This document shows, one piece after another, positions 1 to 25,604 of a stretch of 64,000 nt of DNA. The stretch spans positions 2,976,001-3,040,000 of the forward strand of contig NZ_JAPNKC010000001.1 in assembly GCF_026626705.1 (NCBI RefSeq), read 5' to 3'. Source of the stretch: Pyxidicoccus sp. MSG2 (GTDB taxonomy: Bacteria; Myxococcota; Myxococcia; Myxococcales; Myxococcaceae). The notes under the pieces are model-generated. The model had not been told where the DNA came from. It worked only from the letters and a program-made list of their open reading frames with translations, and searched no databases. A program made the position numbers and the translations under genes. Every line of letters starts with the position of its first letter. The first letter of the stretch is position 1.

Positions 1-521
1 ACGAGGAGAAGCACCTCCAGCAGCGCCGCCGCTCGGACGACCGGCTGGTGCCGGACCACCTCGAGACGCGCCGGGTGCTGGAGCCGGAGCACTACGACTG
101 GATGGCGGGCCTGCCCCACTTCATCCGGCTGCCGGAGCACAACGCCATCGTCGTGCACGCCGGCATGCTGCCCGACAGGCCCGTCGAGGCCCAGGACCCC
201 TACCATCTGCTCCACGTGCAGTGCATCCAGCCACCCTCCGCCAAGAGCTACTGGCCATCCAAGGCTCCTGACGGGTGGACGTTCTGGACGCACCACTGGA
301 AGGGTCCGGAGCGGGTCATCTTCGGCCACACCGTCTTCGACCAGCCGCTCGTCACCGAGCACGCGGTGGGTATCGACACCGGCTGCGTGTATGGCCGCTC
401 ATTGACGGCGGTGGTGCTCCCCACCTGGGAGCTCGTCTCGGTGCCGGCCCGGAACACGTACCGGGGCGGCAAAGAGGTGGCGAAGTTCCCGGTACACGGC
501 GACGTGTGCGTCTACTCCTGA
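1..521 (+). CDS. Metallophosphoesterase / PPP-type phosphatase, 3' part only
   Basis: The reading frame is open from base 3 and continues upstream of the window, so only the C-terminal ~172 codons are present and the true start is not visible. The residue pattern is that of calcineurin-like phosphatases. A 'VVHAGM' segment near the middle supplies a metal-ligand His. A later 'FGHTVFDQP' supplies the second His, followed by 'GIDTGCVYGRSLTA', the usual closing motif of bacterial Ser/Thr or diadenosine-tetraphosphate phosphatases. The N-terminal metal ligands (GDxHG, GDxVDRG, GNHE) would lie outside the window. The substrate (phosphoprotein or ApnA) cannot be decided from this fragment. It ends 16 nt before the Y-RNA-like locus and may be transcribed into it. 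Confidence 0.8.
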   Translation, partial: EEKHLQQRRRSDDRLVPDHLETRRVLEPEHYDWMAGLPHFIRLPEHNAIVVHAGMLPDRPVEAQDPYHLLHVQCIQPPSAKSYWPSKAPDGWTFWTHHWKGPERVIFGHTVFDQPLVTEHAVGIDTGCVYGRSLTAVVLPTWELVSVPARNTYRGGKEVAKFPVHGDVCVYS

Positions 522-537
522 AGCACTGACAGCTTTC

Positions 538-672
538 GCGCCCGTCCGACGGGGTCCCACACGCAAAGAGGCGCGGGTTCGACTCCCGCCGGCCGCTCCT
601 GTGCGGCCGTAGCTCAATGGTAGAGCGCTGGACTCCAACTCCAGAGGACAACCGGCCTCGTCACTCGGGCGC
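538..672 (+). ncRNA. Y RNA-like (YrlA-type) RNA with permuted tRNA-like module
   Basis: The ends pair: GCGCCCG (538-544) with CGGGCGC (666-672). After a 3x3 internal loop, GACGGGGTC (548-556) pairs over 9 bp with GGCCTCGTC (654-662), including G-U pairs. Inside lies a tRNA-like fold in circularly permuted order. First comes a T arm (GCGGG 573-577, loop TTCGACT, CCCGC 585-589), then acceptor strand CGGCCGC (590-596), a 6-nt loop TCCTGT, acceptor strand GCGGCCG (603-609), TA, a D arm (612-626), and an anticodon arm with loop CTCCAAC (633-639; anticodon CCA) and stem CTGGA/TCCAG. The ends leave from where the variable loop would be. Bacterial Y RNAs that bind Ro60/Rsr are known to combine an end stem with a tRNA-mimicking module, and the next gene is TROVE/vWA-like. 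A U-rich tract (675 onward) follows the outer stem and may terminate the RNA. It is not a normal tRNA, because the 5' half follows the 3' half. Confidence 0.8.
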
Positions 673-822: not shown

Positions 823-2598
823 ATGACGACCACGACGCAGAACACGAACCTGTTGCCCGAGGCGCAGCGCGGCCCGGCCGAGCGGCTGCTGGACCTGGTG
901 CTCGGGGGCTCGGCGCACCTGTGGCACAACCGGCCCGGGCTGGACGTGAATGGCACCTGGTACGCGGCGGCGCACGCCACCCCGGCGCAGAAGGCCAGCG
1001 GGCGGCCGGTGAAGCCGGGCCTCTTCGTGCCGGCGGCGGTGAAGCTCTACCGGCAGCTGCTGGACATCTACAAGCTCAACGCGGAGCTGATGGCGCACTT
1101 CGCGTCGTACGCGCTGACTCAGACGGACTGGCGTGACCTGAAGGTGGCCACGTGCGCGCTCATGCTGGTGCAGGAGCACGCGGGCCAGCCCGTGCGCGAC
1201 GACAACGGCCAGGTGGCGTTCCACGACGACGACTGGCGGGCCATCGGCGAGGCGATGGTGCTCCACTACGAGCGCAAGTCCACGCGCATGCTCGCGCCCA
1301 AGGCCGTGCTGCGGGTGGCGGAGCTGCTCGAGCAGCCGGAGATTGCACGCCTCAACCGCGAGGCGGGCTTCGGTGACCCCGCGTCCCGCAAGGCGCCGCT
1401 GGGCCGCTGGAAGCGCGTCGCGTCCAAGTGGCTGGCGGCACGTGAGGCGAACCTGCCGATGCTCCAGGGTCTGGTGAAGGCCGGGTACAAGGAGACGTTG
1501 AAGAAGCTGGCGCGCAAGGCGGGGTACAAGCCGGGCACGCAGGGCTTCTTCGAGGTGCTCGGCTGGAAGCAGAAGCAGTCCGACGCGGGCCACCGCACGG
1601 TGGGTCTGACGGGCCTGACGCTGGTCAAGCGCGAGCGCTTCGACGGGCTGTCGGAGGCGGAGATCTGCGAGTGGGTCGAGCTGGAGCGCCTCTCCTACAA
1701 GGAGGTGGTGGGCCGGCTGCCGAAGGACGTGGGCCTCACGCCGGCCATCATGGCGGCCCTGCTCCCGTCCCTGTCGGACCGTGACCTGCGGCTGATGACG
1801 CCGACGCTGGAGGAGCTGGGCCTGCTGGCGGAGCCCACGGTGCGCGCGCGCTGGGAGAAGGCGGTGGCGAGCGCCACGGACCAGCGGGCGCTGAACATCG
1901 CGAAGAACGTGCGCAGCGTGGTGCTGCGGCAGAAGCTGGAGGAGGCGAGCGACAACGCGGCCCGTACCGCGGTGGCGGAGGCGACGGCGGAGACCGACGT
2001 GAGGGTGATGTTCCTCATCGACAAGTCGGGGTCCATGGAGGGGGCCATCGAGAACTCGAAGGAGGCGCTCGCGCGCATCCTCGCGGGCTTCCCGCTGGAG
2101 AAGCTGCACATCGCGGCGTTCGACACGATGGGCACGGTGCTGCGGCCGAAGGCGGCCAACCGCACCGCCGTCCAGCACATGCTGGCCGGGCTGAAGGCGT
2201 CGGGTGGCACCACGCACGCGGCCGCGTTGCAGGCACTGCACCGCGACGGCGTGAGGGTGCCGGAGGGGGCGAAGCTGGTGGTCATCGTGGTGGGTGACGA
2301 GGCGGGCGAGGCAGGGGACCAGCTCGCCCGGGCGTTCCGCGACTTCGGCTACTCCGTGGCGGCCATGGCGTTGCTGGTGTCCGTGGCGGGTGCGCGCGGC
2401 AACACGGTGCGCACGTGCGCGGGGCAGCTGAAGGTGCCGTTCAGCGAGGTGAACGTGGACCAGTTCGCGGACCCGTACCAGGTGCCGCGCGTGCTGAAGG
2501 CGCTGCTGGACGCGCCGGCGGCACAGGGCGGTGCCACCACCGTGCAGTCCGGGTGGGTGGAGCGGGTGATGCGCACGCCGCTGCTGAAGGTGGCGTGA
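823..2598 (+). CDS. rsr: TROVE/vWA-domain protein, Ro60 (Rsr)-like
   Basis: A 591-residue protein. The C-terminal third is a von Willebrand A domain with an intact MIDAS start, 'DKSGSM' (D400, S402, S404), a later Thr/Gly-rich 'SGGTTHAAAL', and a 'VVIVVGDEAG' strand. The N-terminal ~380 residues are largely helical and include an 'RWKRVASKWL...LPMLQGLVK' stretch reminiscent of the HEAT-like TROVE ring. TROVE+vWA is the domain order of Ro60, which holds misfolded RNA and Y RNA. The TROVE part is divergent, so the assignment leans on order, the vWA domain and the Y-RNA-like locus 150 nt upstream. The start ATG at 823 has AAAGGGG upstream. The protein is cytoplasmic, with no signal peptide or membrane segment. 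It begins a three-gene + strand run with the unknown protein at 2632 and the JAMM protein at 3825. The alternative is a vWA protein of a MoxR-type chaperone pair, but no MoxR ATPase is adjacent. Confidence 0.65.
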   Translation: MTTTTQNTNLLPEAQRGPAERLLDLVLGGSAHLWHNRPGLDVNGTWYAAAHATPAQKASGRPVKPGLFVPAAVKLYRQLLDIYKLNAELMAHFASYALTQTDWRDLKVATCALMLVQEHAGQPVRDDNGQVAFHDDDWRAIGEAMVLHYERKSTRMLAPKAVLRVAELLEQPEIARLNREAGFGDPASRKAPLGRWKRVASKWLAAREANLPMLQGLVKAGYKETLKKLARKAGYKPGTQGFFEVLGWKQKQSDAGHRTVGLTGLTLVKRERFDGLSEAEICEWVELERLSYKEVVGRLPKDVGLTPAIMAALLPSLSDRDLRLMTPTLEELGLLAEPTVRARWEKAVASATDQRALNIAKNVRSVVLRQKLEEASDNAARTAVAEATAETDVRVMFLIDKSGSMEGAIENSKEALARILAGFPLEKLHIAAFDTMGTVLRPKAANRTAVQHMLAGLKASGGTTHAAALQALHRDGVRVPEGAKLVVIVVGDEAGEAGDQLARAFRDFGYSVAAMALLVSVAGARGNTVRTCAGQLKVPFSEVNVDQFADPYQVPRVLKALLDAPAAQGGATTVQSGWVERVMRTPLLKVA

Positions 2599-2631: not shown

Positions 2632-3807
2632 GTGGACTACCGGAAGTTCCTCGGGAAGGTGGAGTCGGCGGTGCTGCCGTATCTTGGCGGCGGCACCGTG
2701 GACGCCCCCTCGCGCCGCCTCCGTGTCGCCACCCCGGTCCGTCCGGGGTGGTGGCGCTTCGAGGTGCAGGGGCGTGTGGCGACGGCGCGCGAGCCGGCCG
2801 GGCCGGAGGGCCTGGATGGGTTGCCGCGCGTGCGGGGCCATGTGTGGGGCAGCCGGCTGGTGCGCGAGGGCGCGGTGGCCGAGCCCCTGGAGTTGATGCC
2901 GGAGGAGGAGCCGCCCCGGCTGGCGCTGGTGAGCGCCCGCAGGTGGCATGACGGCTCGCTCCTGTTCGACGGGCTGGAGTTCGAGGGTGAGGCGGAGGAC
3001 GCGGCACGCCGCGCGCTGGAGGAGGGGCAGTCCCTCTCTAGTGCGAAGGGCGTGAGCGCGGCGCTGCGGGCGGCGTTCGGCTACGCGCTGCTGGAGGGTG
3101 CGTCGCGCGCGCTGGCCATCCGCTTCGCGCCGGCCGAGGTGCGCGCGCGGGTGCTGGACGTGGCGGAGGGCGGCCGCGAGAAGGCGGAGGCGTGCCTGCG
3201 CCACCTGGTGGCCGAGCGCGAGGCGCACCTGCGGGCACGGGCGGCGCGGGAGGCACGGACGCAGGAGGAGCGCGAGGCGGCGCTGGCTCGGGAGTACGCG
3301 GCGGGGCTGGTGTCGGAGGCACAGCGGCGGGCGGCGGCGGGCGGCGCGTATCCGGCGGACACGATGGCCGAGGCCCAGCGGCGGGCGCTGGCGGGGGGCG
3401 CATACCCCGGGGGCACGATGTCCGAGGCCCAGCGGCGGGCGCTGGAGCGCGACGCCGCGGCGGGACGGGCGCACACGGCACAGGTGGTGGCCGAGGCGCT
3501 GCGCCAGTCCGCGCGGCACGGGCGGCGGGGCACGCAGGAAGACAGCGTGGAGCGCGCGGAGCGGGCGCTCCAGAGCGCCGGTGCGCGGCTGCGCGATGTG
3601 CGGCGGCTGGGCGGCAACCGGCTGGAGGTGACGTATGCCTTCATGGGCGAGCGCTTCATCTCCATCGTGGATGCCCACTCGCTCCAGGTGGTGGACGCGG
3701 GCGTGTGTCTGGCGGGCGCGGACAGCGAGGTGACGCTGGAGAGCCTGCCGTCCGTCATCCGCGAGGCCATCGACACGGGCGTGCTGGTGATTACGCGGCA
3801 CGCGTAG
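2632..3807 (+). CDS. Unknown protein with coiled-coil EAQRR repeats, Ro60-operon partner
   Basis: A 391-residue protein starting at GTG 2632 with the strong ribosome site GGAAAGGAGG, 33 nt after the TROVE/vWA gene. I do not recognise the family. Residues ~1-160 look globular (alternating beta-rich segments). Residues ~180-310 are charged and helical, with near-identical tandem units around EAQRRA and a GGAYP linker (residues ~227-285). The last ~70 residues form a compact domain ending 'LESLPSVIREAIDTGVLVITRH', whose conserved look suggests it carries the function. No transmembrane segment or Cys/His metal site is seen. Its place between a Ro60-like protein and a JAMM peptidase suggests an RNP-associated or conjugation-related role, but this is inference only. 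The tandem units make this part likely to vary in length between strains. Confidence 0.85.
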   Translation: MDYRKFLGKVESAVLPYLGGGTVDAPSRRLRVATPVRPGWWRFEVQGRVATAREPAGPEGLDGLPRVRGHVWGSRLVREGAVAEPLELMPEEEPPRLALVSARRWHDGSLLFDGLEFEGEAEDAARRALEEGQSLSSAKGVSAALRAAFGYALLEGASRALAIRFAPAEVRARVLDVAEGGREKAEACLRHLVAEREAHLRARAAREARTQEEREAALAREYAAGLVSEAQRRAAAGGAYPADTMAEAQRRALAGGAYPGGTMSEAQRRALERDAAAGRAHTAQVVAEALRQSARHGRRGTQEDSVERAERALQSAGARLRDVRRLGGNRLEVTYAFMGERFISIVDAHSLQVVDAGVCLAGADSEVTLESLPSVIREAIDTGVLVITRHA

Positions 3808-3824
3808 ACGGGAAGGAGGAAACC

Positions 3825-4196
3825 ATGAGGACGCGAGAGGTGTGCCTGCTCATCGGCCGGGACGGTGACGTGCTGTGGAGCGACGAGTCCGACAACGCGT
3901 TCCTCCTGCCGGACTCGCGCGAGCGGTGGGAGGCCATCTGGCAACTGCGGGCGGAGCTGGCGGAGGTGGCGCACAGCCACCCCGAGGGCCCGCTCGGCTT
4001 CTCCGCCGAGGACGAGAGCACCATGTCCGCGCTCACCTCCGCGCTCGGGCGCACGCTGCGGTTCTCCGTGGTGGCGCCCGGCGGCATGGTGGCGCGCGTG
4101 GACGGGCGCGACGTGCTCGTCTCCGAGGAGCCGTGGTGGGCCGAGCCCCTGCGCCGCGCGTCGGGCATGCGCCACGCGCCGATGGCCCTCGCCTGA
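3825..4196 (+). CDS. JAMM/MPN (JAB) metallopeptidase-like protein
   Basis: A small 123-residue protein starting at ATG 3825 behind GGAAGGAGG, 17 nt after the previous gene. It contains the exact JAMM zinc signature H-x-H-(x)7-S-(x)2-D: H50, H52, S60, D63, in 'HSHPEGPLGFSAED'. The family includes deubiquitinases and, in bacteria, peptidases that process or remove ubiquitin-like proteins in E1/Ubl operons, as well as RadC-like proteins. The length fits a stand-alone JAB domain. An upstream acidic residue able to act as the catalytic Glu is probably among E21-E33 but cannot be fixed without alignment. An E1/ThiF protein and a small Ubl candidate lie 12.5 kb downstream. Only 32 nt separate it from the convergent HAM1-like gene. 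Confidence 0.75.
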   Translation: MRTREVCLLIGRDGDVLWSDESDNAFLLPDSRERWEAIWQLRAELAEVAHSHPEGPLGFSAEDESTMSALTSALGRTLRFSVVAPGGMVARVDGRDVLVSEEPWWAEPLRRASGMRHAPMALA

Positions 4197-22788: not shown

Positions 22789-22873
22789 GGGGACGTAGAG
22801 CGTTACGGAGACGCGCCAGCCTGTAGAGCTGGAGCCCGAGAGGGCCCGCTGGGTTCGACTCCCAGCGTCCCCA
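22789..22873 (+). tRNA. tRNA-Tyr(GTA)
   Basis: Acceptor GGGGACG/CGTCCCC, anticodon arm CCAGC-CTGTAGA-GCTGG, a variable arm GCCC-GAGA-GGGC as expected for bacterial tRNA-Tyr, and T loop TTCGACT. The D stem (GCGT/ACGC) is shifted by two bases from the normal place. No encoded CCA. First gene of the array. Confidence 0.85.
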
Positions 22874-22898
22874 TCACCGCAGATTCGCAGCACCACTC

Positions 22899-22973
22899 CT
22901 GGGTGTAGCTCAGTCTGGCCAGAGCGCACGGTTCGGGTCCGTGAGGCCGCAGGTTCAAATCCTGTCACCCAGA
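22899..22973 (+). tRNA. tRNA-Pro(CGG)
   Basis: Acceptor CTGGGTG/CACCCAG, D arm GCTC/GAGC, anticodon arm CACGG-TTCGGGT-CCGTG and T loop TTCAAAT make a regular cloverleaf. Confidence 0.9.
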
Positions 22974-22993
22974 TACGCAGCACATGCAGTGCA

Positions 22994-23064
22994 CGGGGTA
23001 TGGCTCAAAGGCAGAGCTCCCGCTTGATAAGCGGGCGGTCCCGGTTCGACTCCGGGTGCCCCGA
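22994..23064 (+). tRNA. tRNA-Ile(GAT)
   Basis: Acceptor CGGGGTA/TGCCCCG (one G-U), D arm GCTC/GAGC, anticodon arm CCCGC-TTGATAA-GCGGG and T loop TTCGACT. The variable loop is short (4 nt). Confidence 0.85.
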
Positions 23065-23140
23065 CAGCAGCAACTCTCTGACAACTGAATCGCAGTGGTG
23101 AAAGCACGCCGCCCGCTCACATCAGGGGCGGCACGCAAAC

Positions 23141-23211
23141 ACCTCCGTAGCTCAACGGCTGAGCACCCGGCTCTTACCCGGGCGGTGAGGGTTCGAATCC
23201 CTCCGGAGGTA
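23141..23211 (+). tRNA. tRNA-Lys(CTT)
   Basis: Acceptor ACCTCCG/CGGAGGT, D arm GCTC/GAGC, anticodon arm CCCGG-CTCTTAC-CCGGG and T loop TTCGAAT. The 76 nt before it hold only a GCCGCCC/GGGCGGC hairpin. Confidence 0.88.
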
Positions 23212-23216
23212 CTCAC

Positions 23217-23287
23217 GCGGGTGTCGTCCAGCGGCAGGACTTCGGTCTCCCATACCGAGGACACGGGTTCGAATCCCGTCACCCGCT
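23217..23287 (+). tRNA. tRNA-Gly(CCC)
   Basis: Acceptor GCGGGTG/CACCCGC, D arm GTCC/GGAC, anticodon arm TCGGT-CTCCCAT-ACCGA and T loop TTCGAAT. Only 5 nt separate it from tRNA-Lys. Confidence 0.9.
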
Positions 23288-23301
23288 TTCACGTCTTCTC
23301 T

Positions 23302-23373
23302 ACCAGGGTGGTCAAACGGCTACGACGGCGGATTCTGACTCCGCAAGCGCAGGTTCGATTCCTGCCCCTGGTT
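23302..23373 (+). tRNA. tRNA-Gln(CTG)
   Basis: Acceptor ACCAGGG/CCCTGGT, 3-bp D stem GTC/GAC, anticodon arm GCGGA-TTCTGAC-TCCGC and T loop TTCGATT. Confidence 0.87.
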
Positions 23374-23402
23374 CTCGGTAGCACGCAGCAAGCGCAGCAC
23401 AT

Positions 23403-23474
23403 TCCCCGGTAGCTCAATGGCAGAGCACGCGGCTGTTAACCGCGGGGTTGAAGGTTCGAGTCCTTCCCGGGGAG
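23403..23474 (+). tRNA. tRNA-Asn(GTT)
   Basis: Acceptor TCCCCGG/CCGGGGA, D arm GCTC/GAGC, anticodon arm CGCGG-CTGTTAA-CCGCG, T loop TTCGAGT and discriminator G as usual for Asn. Confidence 0.92.
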
Positions 23475-23485
23475 CTGATTCACAT

Positions 23486-23555
23486 GGCCTGTTCCGCCTG
23501 GGGCGGCAGCGGTCTGCAAAACCGTTTGAGGCGGGTTCGACTCCCGCACTGGCCT
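23486..23555 (+). tRNA. tRNA-Cys(GCA), reduced D arm
   Basis: Acceptor GGCCTGT/ACTGGCC (one T-T mismatch), anticodon loop CTGCAAA on a GCGGT/ACCGT stem and T loop TTCGACT. The D arm is reduced to CGCC-TGGG-GCGG, so the conserved D-loop GG for pairing with the T loop is cramped or absent. Discriminator T fits Cys. Confidence 0.75.
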
Positions 23556-23574
23556 CTCTCTCACCGCAACACAT

Positions 23575-23647
23575 GCCGGCCTGGCGTAGGTGGTCCGCGC
23601 GCCTGTCTGAAGCACAGGAGGACTCGGTTCGATTCCGGGGGCCGGCA
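23575..23647 (+). tRNA. tRNA-Phe(GAA)
   Basis: Acceptor GCCGGCC/GGCCGGC, D stem GCG/CGC, anticodon arm CCTGT-CTGAAGC-ACAGG, T loop TTCGATT and discriminator A. Confidence 0.85.
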
Positions 23648-23677
23648 CTCGCAGCACGCAGCAAGCAGCACCTTCAT

Positions 23678-23746
23678 AGGCCGCGCTCCGGGGAGCAGCC
23701 TCGACTCCAAATCGAAGCCAGCGGGGATCAACACCCTGGCGGCCTG
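23678..23746 (+). tRNA. tRNA-Trp(CCA)-like, degenerate
   Basis: Acceptor AGGCCGC/GCGGCCT is perfect. The D arm GCTC-CGGG-GAGC follows directly, so bases 8-9 are missing and the D loop has 4 nt. The anticodon loop CTCCAAA sits on a 4-bp stem TCGA/TCGA. The T loop ATCAACA is non-canonical (T54 lost). It may be inactive or act as a decoy; compare the CCA arm of the Y-RNA-like locus. Confidence 0.6.
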
Positions 23747-23754
23747 TTTCAGAC

Positions 23755-23828
23755 GCTCCTGTAGCTCAGCTGGTAGCAGCACCGGTTTCGTAAACCGGGG
23801 GTCGTCGGTTCGAACCCGACCGGGAGCA
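23755..23828 (+). tRNA. tRNA-Thr(CGT)
   Basis: Acceptor GCTCCTG/CGGGAGC, anticodon arm CCGGT-TTCGTAA-ACCGG and T stem GTCGG/CCGAC. The D stem is imperfect (GCT/AGC, with an extra CA before AGC). Confidence 0.85.
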
Positions 23829-23854
23829 CTCGTCGCACCGCGGTACCGTTTCAT

Positions 23855-23925
23855 GGGGCCATGGCTCAATGGGAGAGCGCTCGGCTTGCACCCGAGATGT
23901 CCGGGTTCGAATCCCGGTGGTTCCA
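23855..23925 (+). tRNA. tRNA-Ala(TGC)
   Basis: Acceptor GGGGCCA/TGGTTCC with two G-U pairs, D arm GCTC/GAGC, anticodon arm CTCGG-CTTGCAC-CCGAG and T loop TTCGAAT. Confidence 0.88.
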
Positions 23926-23931
23926 CTTCAC

Positions 23932-24006
23932 GCCTCTGTAGCTCAGTGGGATGAGAGCGCACGGTTCCGAACCGTGAGGCCGCAGGTTCGAGCCCTGCCA
24001 GAGGCA
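23932..24006 (+). tRNA. tRNA-Arg(CCG)
   Basis: Acceptor GCCTCTG/CAGAGGC, D arm GCTC/GAGC, anticodon arm CACGG-TTCCGAA-CCGTG and T stem GCAGG/CCTGC. It lies 6 nt after tRNA-Ala. Confidence 0.9.
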
Positions 24007-24019
24007 TCTGTCACACCAC

Positions 24020-24094
24020 GCTTCCGTAGCTCAGTGGATTCAGAGCGGGCGCGTCCTAAGCGCACGGTCGCAGGTTCGAGTCCTGCCGGGAGCA
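24020..24094 (+). tRNA. tRNA-Arg(CCT)
   Basis: Acceptor GCTTCCG/CGGGAGC (one U-G), D arm GCTC/GAGC, anticodon loop GTCCTAA on a 4-bp GCGC stem (outer G-A mismatch; G32 unusual) and T stem GCAGG/CCTGC. Confidence 0.8.
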
Positions 24095-24113
24095 CACACA
24101 CCAACGTCTTTCA

Positions 24114-24185
24114 TGCGGAGTGGGACCGGACGTCCCACTGGGCCTCATAAGCCCGGGTCGCAGGGTTCGACTCCCTGCTCCGCAA
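24114..24185 (+). tRNA. tRNA-Met(CAT), unusual D arm
   Basis: Acceptor TGCGGAG/CTCCGCA, anticodon loop CTCATAA on GGGC/GCCC (outer T-G) and T stem CAGGG/CCCTG. The D region is a 5-bp hairpin GGGAC-CGGAC-GTCCC instead of the normal 3-4 bp arm. It could be elongator Met or the Ile2 (lysidine) type. Confidence 0.75.
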
Positions 24186-24193
24186 CTCTTCAT

Positions 24194-24266
24194 GCACGCC
24201 GAGCCAGCTGGAGACGGCGACGGTCCCACACACCGTATCTGCCGGGTTCGATCCCCGGGGCGTGCA
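24194..24266 (+). tRNA. tRNA-Val(CAC), C33
   Basis: Acceptor GCACGCC/GGCGTGC, D stem GCC/GGC, anticodon stem ACGGT/ACCGT and T stem CCGGG/CCCGG. The anticodon loop CCCACAC has C at position 33 where U is nearly universal. Confidence 0.75.
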
Positions 24267-24281
24267 CTCTGTAGTTCCCAT

Positions 24282-24356
24282 GCCGGGATAGCCCAACCAG
24301 GTAGAGGCACCAGGTCGAGAACCTGGCGAGTGCGGGTTCGACTCCCGCTTCCGGCA
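24282..24356 (+). tRNA. tRNA-Leu(GAG)-like, C33 and short variable loop
   Basis: Acceptor GCCGGGA/TTCCGGC, D arm GCCC/GAGGC, anticodon arm CCAGG-TCGAGAA-CCTGG and T stem GCGGG/CCCGC. Position 33 is C. The variable loop CGAGT is only 5 nt, whereas bacterial tRNA-Leu has a long arm, so the isotype is uncertain. Confidence 0.65.
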
Positions 24357-24410
24357 CATGCAGTCGCAGTGAGTCGTACAGAGGTGTCGTCAGAGAAACT
24401 CCCGAAGCAC

Positions 24411-24484
24411 GTCCACGTAGCCCAATTGGGAGAGGCCGCCGGCTCAAACCCGGCCGAGTGCGAGTTCGAATCTCGCCGTGGACA
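24411..24484 (+). tRNA. tRNA-Leu(CAA)-like with short variable loop
   Basis: Acceptor GTCCACG/CGTGGAC, D arm GCCC/GAGGC, anticodon arm GCCGG-CTCAAAC-CCGGC and T stem GCGAG/CTCGC. The variable loop CGAGT is 5 nt instead of the long class II arm. It is the last tRNA before the HNH gene (22-nt gap). Confidence 0.75.
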
Positions 24485-24506
24485 TCAACCCGAGAGGCGC
24501 CGTGTC

Positions 24507-25049
24507 ATGGAGACGCTGGTACTGAGTCAATCCTACGAGCCCGTCGCGCGGGTCCCCTGGCAGCGCGCGGTGATGTTGATCTTCCAGGGCAAGGTCGAGG
24601 TGGTCGAGGAGTACGAGGACCGCTTCGTGCGCTCGGTGACGGTGGCGGTGAAGATGCCGTCCGTCATCCGCTTCATCCGCGGGCTGCGCCGGGGTCCCAA
24701 GGGCGTGAAGTTCAGCCGGGAGAACGTGTACCTGCGCGACAACTGTCGCTGCCAGTACTGCGGCAGCAAGGTGTCGCGGCCCGAGGCCACGTACGACCAC
24801 GTCCTCCCTCGCGCGCAGGGTGGCAAGACCTGCTGGGAGAACGTCGTCATCGCGTGTGTGCCCTGCAACCAGAAGAAGGGCAACCGCACGCCGGTGGTGG
24901 CGAAGATGGCGCTGCGCAGCACGCCGGCGAAGCCGAAGAAGCTGCCCGAGGCAATGCACCTGACCTTCCTGTTCGAGAAGGGCATGCCCGTGTCGTGGGC
25001 CAAGTTCCTCGGTGACATGGCGTACTGGCACGTGGAGCTGGAGGAGTGA
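24507..25049 (+). CDS. HNH endonuclease inside the tRNA array
   Basis: A 180-residue protein. The HNH core has a zinc site 'CRCQYCG' and 'CVPCN' (two CxxC pairs), the first His in 'YDHVLPRAQGG' and the last Asn/His segment in 'ENVVIACVPCNQKKGNRTP'. The N-terminal ~70 residues ('VLSQSYEPVARVPWQRAVMLIFQGKVEVVEEY') are typical of the stand-alone HNH family common in actinobacteria, cyanobacteria and myxobacteria. ATG 24507 is chosen where this conserved N-terminus begins, behind GAGAGG. It is 22 nt after tRNA-Leu(CAA) and before three tRNA-Ser genes, so it is probably on the same transcript. A role in array mobility, in RNA/DNA processing or in defence is conceivable; the sequence does not decide. 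Confidence 0.9.
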   Translation: METLVLSQSYEPVARVPWQRAVMLIFQGKVEVVEEYEDRFVRSVTVAVKMPSVIRFIRGLRRGPKGVKFSRENVYLRDNCRCQYCGSKVSRPEATYDHVLPRAQGGKTCWENVVIACVPCNQKKGNRTPVVAKMALRSTPAKPKKLPEAMHLTFLFEKGMPVSWAKFLGDMAYWHVELEE

Positions 25050-25063
25050 GGTCGCGGAGCAAT

Positions 25064-25115
25064 AGGGGAACCACCAGAGGTGGCCCCTAGGAGGTCCCAC
25101 CAGAGGTGGGCCTCC
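25064..25115 (+). repeat. Twin hairpins between the HNH gene and tRNA-Ser genes
   Basis: Hairpin 1 is AGGGG-AA-CCACC-aga-GGTGG-CCCCT (25064-25088). Hairpin 2 is GGAGG-T-CCCAC-cagag-GTGGG-CCTCC (25090-25115). Both share the core CCACCAGAGGTGG, as if duplicated. There is no U tract. They may be processing or stability elements of the tRNA transcript, or a terminator of the HNH gene. Confidence 0.6.
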
Positions 25116-25178
25116 CGCTCCACGCGGACCTCCCCGCGCGCCGGCAGGCGGGAACGCTGCTGCCGGCACTTTTCACCT

Positions 25179-25262
25179 GGGAGGTCGACGCCGGAGGCCG
25201 GCGGCCCGTTTCGAAAACGGTGCGAGCGCACCGCGCTTGGGGTTCGAGTCCCCTGCCTTCCG
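25179..25262 (+). tRNA. tRNA-Ser(CGA)
   Basis: Acceptor GGGAGGT/GCCTTCC with G-U pairs, anticodon loop TTCGAAA on a 4-bp stem, a long variable arm, T loop TTCGAGT and discriminator G as usual for Ser. Confidence 0.8.
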
Positions 25263-25273
25263 CTGTCTTTTCT

Positions 25274-25359
25274 GGAGCATGCAGACCGGGTGGCCGGTCG
25301 CCTGGTTGGAAACCAGGAGAGCCCCTCGTGGGCTCGTGGTTCGACTCCACCCTGCTCCG
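25274..25359 (+). tRNA. tRNA-Ser(GGA)
   Basis: Acceptor GGAGCA/TGCTCC (seventh pair mismatched), anticodon arm CCTGG-TTGGAAA-CCAGG, a long variable arm GAGCCC/GGGCTC, T loop TTCGACT and discriminator G. Confidence 0.85.
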
Positions 25360-25367
25360 TCTTTTCT

Positions 25368-25455
25368 GGAAGTTGGATTGGCGATGGCGCCAGGCCCCGC
25401 TGCTACCGGGTGCGAGCCGGAACTCCGGCTTGAGGTTCGAGTCCTCCGACTTCCG
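25368..25455 (+). tRNA. tRNA-Ser(GCT)
   Basis: Acceptor GGAAGTT/GACTTCC, anticodon loop CTGCTAC on CCCG/CGGG, a long variable arm GAGCCGG/CCGGCT, T stem GAGG/CCTC and discriminator G. Last gene of the array; a long GC-rich inverted repeat (GTGGGGCC 25473 region / GGGCCCCAC) follows and may terminate it. Confidence 0.85.
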
Positions 25456-25604
25456 CTCTCCCTGCCCCGTGGGGCCGGGCCCTTCACCGGGTGTGCACCG
25501 GGTGACTCGGGCCCCACACCGGCACGCAGCATGGCCGCACGCCGCGCCGTCCCTAGCCTCCCTGCCACCGGGCCCCCCCGGGAGCAGGGAAAGGACGCGA
25601 GCAC

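Follow-up and report, generated by a model that had tools for sequence, protein, structure and literature searches.

The window, i.e. the whole stretch of 64 kb of DNA analysed here, begins with the 3' part of a gene for a calcineurin-like phosphoesterase, followed by an RNA element (element A) in which a two-part basal stem carries a tRNA core that runs from the T arm through the acceptor and the D arm to the anticodon arm, and by a gene for a Ro60-type protein, whose start codon lies about 150 nt downstream of the end of element A (Table 1). The phosphoesterase gene lies between element A and a second copy, element B. The C-terminal part of the phosphoesterase gives weak NCBIfam matches, far below the cut-offs, to PrpE and bacterial Pnkp, and the enzyme could be considered a candidate RNA-end phosphatase. 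After the Ro60-type gene, a 391-aa protein with imperfect repeats of the SEAQRRALAGGAYPGGTM kind is encoded on the plus strand (2632-3807), for which neither Pfam nor NCBIfam gave a match, and then, at about 3820-4196 (+), a small protein whose HSHPEG...S..D stretch is reminiscent of the JAB/MPN metalloproteases. The same stretch that contains the tRNA mimic also holds a cluster of 19 ordinary tRNA genes (22789-25456). A search of positions 430-900 restricted to sigma-70-like promoters and intrinsic terminators found neither of them.

Table 1. Parts of element A and the features associated with it. Plain numbers are positions in the window; C1 and L019 coordinates belong to the window's genome.
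Feature	Position	Strand	Evidence
Outer basal stem, 7 bp	538-544/666-672	+	fold, covariation
Second basal stem, 9 bp including two G-U	548-556/654-662	+	fold, covariation
Single-stranded conserved ACACGC (ACA[CAU]GC in relatives)	559-564	+	alignments
T arm, 5 bp, 7-nt loop UUCGACU	573-589	+	fold, covariation
Acceptor stem 3' strand, first in the permuted order, 7 bp	590-596	+	fold, covariation
6-nt loop connecting the acceptor strands, without CCA end	597-602	+	sequence, pattern
Acceptor stem 5' strand, pairing with 590-596	603-609	+	fold, covariation
UA between acceptor 5' strand and D arm	610-611	+	sequence
D arm, 4 bp, loop AAUGGUA	612-626	+	fold, covariation
One-nucleotide spacer between D arm and anticodon arm	627	+	sequence
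Anticodon arm, 5 bp, 7-nt loop CUCCAAC (loop 633-639)	628-644	+	fold, covariation
Conserved CACUCGG, overlapping the outer stem 3' strand	662-668	+	alignments
Divergent Ro60-type protein, 591 aa, TROVE-like part and C-terminal vWA, DKSGS motif	823-2598	+	Foldseek, VIA, hhalign
Calcineurin-like phosphoesterase gene, 3' part (full gene L019:9815-10522)	1-521	+	PF00149, E 3.2e-13
Element B, outside the window, before the phosphoesterase gene	L019:9666-9790		
Tandem element pair	C1:7957968-7958264		
Single further element	C1:9496810-9496943		

The first-pass annotation had read the locus as a Y RNA-like structure, in which a tRNA, circularly permuted by a cut in its variable loop, is closed by an outer stem of 7+9 bp, and each of these features was found at its place. 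The minimum free energy structure of 538-672 is identical with the described fold, at -69.1 kcal/mol (z -3.92), a stability that was not reached in any of 200 dinucleotide shuffles. The permutation itself is borne out by a strict T-acceptor-D-anticodon pattern, which occurs on both strands of the window at the single place 573-644 and never in 20,000 mononucleotide-shuffled versions of the element. ARAGORN makes no tRNA call at 538-672, and the Rfam tRNA model gives a match above its cut-off at 603-673, the 3' part of which, however, falls on the Y stem.

The helices of the element are supported by compensatory changes. Thus, in a MAFFT alignment of 48 diverse hairpin-type relatives, made without reference to structure, double-sided changes were found in 24 of the 27 pairs predicted by RNAalifold. 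The absence of such changes from the outer or the acceptor stem had been named in the first-pass annotation as grounds for giving the structure up; they are present in five of six outer-stem pairs and all seven acceptor pairs, as well as in 4/4 pairs of the second, 3/5 of the T and 5/5 of the anticodon stem. The D stem is absent from this prediction, and its pairs show double changes in one of four among 19 close orthologues and in three of four in the alignment fitted to the structure. Among the same 19 orthologues, 8 of 35 pairs have double changes, the pairs of the anticodon stem being invariant and therefore uninformative. With 131 model-aligned sequences, double changes are seen in 35/37 pairs (0/500 shuffles as high), with a covariation score of 0.523, compared with 0.148 for the shuffles and no more than 0.096 for slid controls, the score being biased because this alignment was fitted to the proposed structure.

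The canonical Ro60/Rsr proteins bind Y RNA and misfolded RNA. The Pfam TROVE model (PF05731) gives no match in the 591-aa protein at E up to 1, none in the 12 members of the protein alignment at 0.01, and none in the window's genome; the protein likewise has no match to vWA_Ro60 (PF25045) or PHROGs, and no TROVE name from NCBIfam. Sequence searches of the PDB matched the vWA part, with the addition of one insignificant match to a myosin light chain. Two AlphaFold models were obtained (mean pLDDT 66.1 and 78.6, pTM 0.43 and 0.46), and for both of them the nine best Foldseek matches were all TROVE/Ro60 chains, at TM-scores below 0.5 (0.35-0.49 for ranks 1-9 in one of the two comparisons, 0.41-0.49 for the best). 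VIA aligned 415 residues (68-564) to Ro 1yvp_A with Z 13.1 and rmsd 7.6, a Z equalled or exceeded by vWA-only chains, which reach up to 14.2 over about 165 residues, and the comparison by hhalign with four Pfam-TROVE proteins gave a probability of 97.3% with E 1.9e-11 over residues 197-586, i.e. beyond the vWA domain. Taken together, Foldseek, VIA and hhalign make a divergent Ro60 with a TROVE-plus-vWA fold the best reading of the protein, with moderate evidence from structure, and the association with a Ro60-type gene that had been proposed for the RNA holds by predicted fold and profile comparison. The protein is similar to Ro60/Rsr (PF05731 + PF25045) in the predicted fold, the order of the parts, the DxSxS motif and the RNA partner, but it shares only 11-16% identity with the solved Ro60 structures in the Foldseek alignments and lacks their TROVE and vWA_Ro60 Pfam matches.

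Among 195 Myxococcota genomes, RNA and protein occur together in 74, the protein alone in two, the RNA alone in two and neither in 117 (Fisher P ~8e-49, for genomes that are not independent, since nearly all of those with both belong to one family). The protein was counted at about 366 bits or more, as full length or long fragments (76 genomes), and the element at E <= 1e-3 (76 genomes); the two RNA-only matches are weak (E 7e-4 and 7.6e-4), and one of the two protein-only genomes, G018, has the element in a laxer search (L074). Pfam TROVE is rare in the same genomes (5/195). The named relatives belong to Myxococcus, Pyxidicoccus, Citreicoccus and Hyalangium, and further ones were found in a Labilithrix bin, in bins assigned to Polyangiaceae, Kofleriaceae, Myxococcaceae and Planctomycetota, and in a record labelled Comamonas (sp. 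KCTC 72670, L017); the protein of the latter is 88% identical to the myxobacterial one of the window, and the label is probably wrong. No plasmid match was found. The sets of loci overlap, L001 and L022 being one contig. The window's genome contains five strong copies of the element at three loci, the next matches having E 0.03 or worse, and only one full-length copy of the protein, so that the locus of the tandem pair and the single further element stand without a protein gene. Several relatives have an element match some 8.7 kb before the position of element A, and no element was found beside the protein gene of L011. The gene-adjacent RNA of L051, L052, L053 and L084 is a mini Y RNA, composed of small hairpins without the tRNA part; the genomes of the last three (genus g3) have full-length element matches elsewhere.

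The YrlA RNAs are bound by Ro60/Rsr and modified by TruB and Dus. A search with their covariance model (RF02553), which the first-pass annotation had suggested as a check, gave a full-length match at 542-654 (36.9 bits, E 1.5e-6), though below the gathering cut-off of 69 bits. This cut-off is a weak discriminator in these genomes, because the RNAs associated with the canonical TROVE genes of the phylum (L085-L088) also remain below it, with 31.3-65.1 bits. Element A has the long basal stem formed from both ends, the permuted order T-acceptor-D and the Ro60-type gene nearby, as YrlA does (RF02553; Salmonella structure PDB 6CU1). However, the Rfam consensus structure of YrlA has a short helix enclosing the T arm, acceptor and D arm, in place of which element A has a hairpin of 5 bp with a 7-nt loop. 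In our reading, the enclosing helix of YrlA is the tRNA anticodon stem, so that YrlA is opened in the anticodon loop and has no anticodon hairpin, whereas in the window's element the break lies in the variable loop and the anticodon arm is closed; its partner protein, unlike that of YrlA, is not recognised as TROVE. According to PMC11472068, the Y RNA structure 6CU1, when superposed on tRNAs, is seen to be a circular permutation of them, and PMC8394870 describes YrlA as a mimic of the D, T and acceptor arms of tRNA. A literature search outside the main YrlA and Ro60 papers found no description of a Y RNA variant opened at the variable loop. Element A is best filed as a real, conserved variant of the Ro60-associated Y RNAs, with a layout unlike the YrlA of Rfam.

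The tRNA ring is opened at three different places among the relatives. The opening in the variable loop, as in the window, is found in 78 of 130 elements after curation by hand; the 130 are the 131 matches of the R1 search model minus one antisense, and 69 of the 88 automatic parses were kept, 19 were dropped by eye and nine were added by hand (six of them re-readings of dropped ones), the parser preferring 7-nt loops and 1-nt spacers in ties. Since the search model was built from hairpin elements, the other forms are under-sampled. The opening in the anticodon loop, i.e. the YrlA type, is represented in the window's genome by the second element of the tandem pair (L092:1661-1797), which has the enclosing helix and scores 36.4 bits with the YrlA model, and occurs also in Citreicoccus, a Kofleriaceae bin and others. 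The rule for the enclosing helix was passed by 26 elements: 17 with the normal spacings of tRNA, exactly 5 nt separating the helix from the T arm and a single nucleotide following the D arm, six that are D-arm misparses of hairpin elements, and three with other spacing. In both of these types the intact junctions tend toward tRNA lengths, while the opened junction varies. The third opening, at the acceptor end, gives an unpermuted tRNA with a short acceptor within the same kind of stem, as in the Planctomycetota bin L014, at 3 kb from the gene (called tRNA-Arg by ARAGORN), and likewise in phages. The TROVE-linked RNAs L085-L088 fail the enclosing-helix rule; L085:3325 and L087:532 nevertheless fold with such a helix, the RNAs of L085, L087 and L088 are full-length YrlA matches, and that of L088 permits the hairpin reading too. 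In the Kofleriaceae bin (L013:4392-4537), four consecutive elements were observed, one of which has a tRNA-Ser-like D arm and the anticodon loop UUCGAAA.

The clean anticodon arm emphasised in the first-pass annotation is present in the window's element, but among the 23 gene-adjacent elements of its genus a clean 5-bp arm is found in 16 (with a 7-nt loop in 13) and is absent in seven. In the whole family, 68 of the 78 elements with an anticodon-arm hairpin have a 7-nt loop, and in these 68 loops a pyrimidine stands at 32 in 67, U33 in 53, a purine at 37 in 58 and A or C at 38 in 67, together with 32 different triplets at 34-36. The loop mostly retains the tRNA signature (pyrimidine 32, U33, purine 37), with the exception of most of the gene-adjacent orthologues, of which the 13 with 7-nt loops have nine different triplets and U33 in three only. 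The description of the mimic as nearly a full tRNA-Trp did not survive this hypervariability of the triplet, nor the presence of a canonical tRNA-Trp(CCA) in the window's genome at L090:1486-1561, which was found with a looser pattern after the first gave no match. Already the 99%-identical neighbour of the window's locus, L001, has the triplet UGG, and this closest pair differs at 9/362 4-fold sites of the adjacent gene, 4/7 loop positions and 8/128 other positions of the element. The pairwise diversity among the 19 orthologues is 0.554 for the triplet, 0.249 for the 4-fold sites of the adjacent gene, 0.028 for the anticodon stem and 0.65 for the loop joining the acceptor strands, and at 10-15% 4-fold divergence the triplet difference is 0.55 for A (14 pairs) and 0.33 for B (24 pairs); these figures come from related genomes in which the pairs are not independent, with 4-fold sites constrained in a G+C-rich gene. 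Several close pairs have identical anticodon loops. The triplet diversity and the differences within close pairs thus point to a rapidly changing triplet that is not conserved, for which diversifying selection is a possible cause only.

Relatives of the pair were found also in large phages. The first viral scan with the myxobacterial alignment found no relative. In an annotated phage set, the virus Rctr197k (KX853510) was found to encode a protein of 37% identity, whose gene immediately follows 30 arrayed tRNAs (ARAGORN); beside this gene, the better matches of the R1 model fall on ordinary tRNAs, from which no Y element could be told apart. Scans of viral contigs with the Rctr197k protein gave 5 loci and those with the combined alignment 54 loci, partly on the same contigs; 25 of the 54 are on contigs longer than 200 kb, repeats included. 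Of the 54, 49 loci of 3-22 kb were used for counting tRNA and tmRNA genes, the other five being on shared or repeated contigs: 29 have 10 or more such genes, 35 have five or more and four have none, the counts taking in a few tmRNAs and some unpermuted mimics. On eight contigs of 202-529 kb, chosen for having tRNA arrays and not an unselected set, 150 of 326 tRNA matches were listed, and 146 of these are no more than 30 kb away from the gene. The phage elements score up to 65.5 bits and share the ACA(C/A/U)GC and CUCG segments with Myxococcus, and the weaker RNA matches in the phage loci are often ordinary tRNAs. From 34 matches inspected, four overlapping ordinary tRNA genes and one partial were left out; an anticodon hairpin was parsed right after the D arm in 28 of the remaining 29 (27/28 without L152:15372, which overlaps an unpermuted element), with a 7-nt loop in 22, of which 17 have pyrimidine 32, 14 have U33 and all 22 have purine 37. 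By eye, 12 of 13 phage places are tRNAs inside a Y-type stem, which is not a rate, the places having been picked as odd or isolated. The ARAGORN calls of 'tRNA-Asp(AUC)' at L154:19496, L185:14793 and L152:15457 are tRNAs within Y-type stems, and Y RNAs may be hidden behind other phage tRNA calls with odd anticodons. That some jumbo phages encode TROVE proteins is reported in PMC7824862, which also mentions a tRNA-like partner in cells; a Ro60-related phage protein is noted in PMC7765460, and TROVE together with tRNAs in Borgs in PMC11208441. The phage part is accordingly less novel, as jumbo-phage TROVE proteins are already known in general; the lineage described here differs in that it is missed by Pfam TROVE, its RNAs have anticodon arms in two layouts, and the gene stands amid tRNA genes in many contigs.

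Four other explanations of element A have been weighed. Remnants of the pseudo-tRNA type do occur, since a degenerate copy lies in the same genome at L019:1916-2032, its 3' part lost beside a helicase gene, but the covariation, the numerous orthologues and the shuffling rule out a chance fold and leave a negligible probability to chance and remnant alike. Permuted tRNA genes exist in red algae and archaea, and the complete tRNA arms of the window's element with the CCA triplet, U33 and A37 would suit such a gene, the transcript of which is excised and rejoined into a functional tRNA-Trp. This is highly improbable, for the genome already has its canonical tRNA-Trp(CCA), the closest relatives differ in the triplet, U33 is absent in 10/13 gene-adjacent orthologues with 7-nt loops, the loop joining the acceptor strands has 3-14 nt without a conserved CCA in the parsed bacterial elements, and the basal stem, which lies outside the tRNA part, is among the most conserved regions; the functional permuted tRNA-Trp was rejected on the non-conserved anticodon and U33 and on the ordinary gene. 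The short distance to the start codon of the Ro60-type gene would suit a cis-acting leader by which the next gene is regulated through the Ro60-type protein or through tRNA enzymes, an improbable arrangement when the paralogues precede another gene (B) or occupy two further loci of the genome without a second protein copy, and when, in some of the phage loci, many elements follow the gene only after several kb.

The fourth explanation, that the element is in effect an ordinary YrlA, the tRNA part of which recruits PNPase or another binder of the elbow while the anticodon arm is a passive by-product, is to be taken seriously, though we hold it for less than probable. It agrees with the full-length match of the YrlA model, the paralogue of YrlA topology in the tandem pair, the non-conserved triplets, the seven of 23 gene-adjacent orthologues without a clean 5-bp hairpin and the scarcity of U33 among the 13 with 7-nt loops, and a complex of Rsr, Y RNA and PNPase in Deinococcus is described in PMC8394870 and PMC7790460. 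Against a passive arm stands the family as a whole, which keeps the geometry of the arm and the signature of its loop (7 nt in 68/78, with the pyrimidine 32, U33 and purine 37 counts given above), and so do the phage elements, with 28/29 parsed and 22 loops of 7 nt.

Element A is very probably a Y RNA of a divergent Ro60 in the broader sense, and its partner is predicted to be, with good probability, the protein encoded next to it. The basal stem of 7+9 bp with ACACGC and CACUCGG would be the protein-binding handle, as conservation and the known Y RNAs suggest, and the effector domain would comprise the whole tRNA body, the chain of which is opened in the variable loop, as sequence and covariation show. 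As the opening is there and not in the anticodon loop, the body presents the elbow, the acceptor stem and a closed anticodon arm. The protein would then carry a lure resembling a complete tRNA for enzymes that recognise tRNA by its elbow or its anticodon arm, which may serve the surveillance or protection of tRNA. As to the ligand of the tRNA body, tRNA-cleaving enzymes are predicted tentatively, and an exonuclease such as PNPase, by analogy with the Deinococcus RYPER, is an equally tentative candidate. The element could plausibly decoy or sense tRNA-cleaving enzymes. The hypothesis that phage tRNAs act against host anticodon nucleases is put forward in PMC10264068, and it would be in keeping with this idea that phages rich in tRNAs have a mimic whose anticodon arm bears a rapidly changing triplet; phages with tRNAs and changes in anticodon loops are common to both cases, the loops sitting here in Ro60-linked mimics. 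The combined proposal of a separate Ro60-Y RNA lineage of myxobacteria and large phages, with the ring opened at three places and the arm-keeping forms acting as decoys or sensors of anticodon nucleases, is a possibility that we advance with reserve; if it is true, the conserved signature of the loop serves as bait, while an arms race diversifies the triplet.

The tRNA mimicry of the Y RNAs is not tied to one layout, as the Ro60-type handle joins the tRNA body at three points, and the three layouts separate what the mimic must display, such as the elbow and the anticodon arm, from the way in which the chain is connected. The finding adds a Ro60-type branch that is not named by Pfam, in Myxococcota, where Pfam TROVE is rare, and in large phages, and the role of a bacterial Ro60 and its tRNA-like RNA becomes directly testable.
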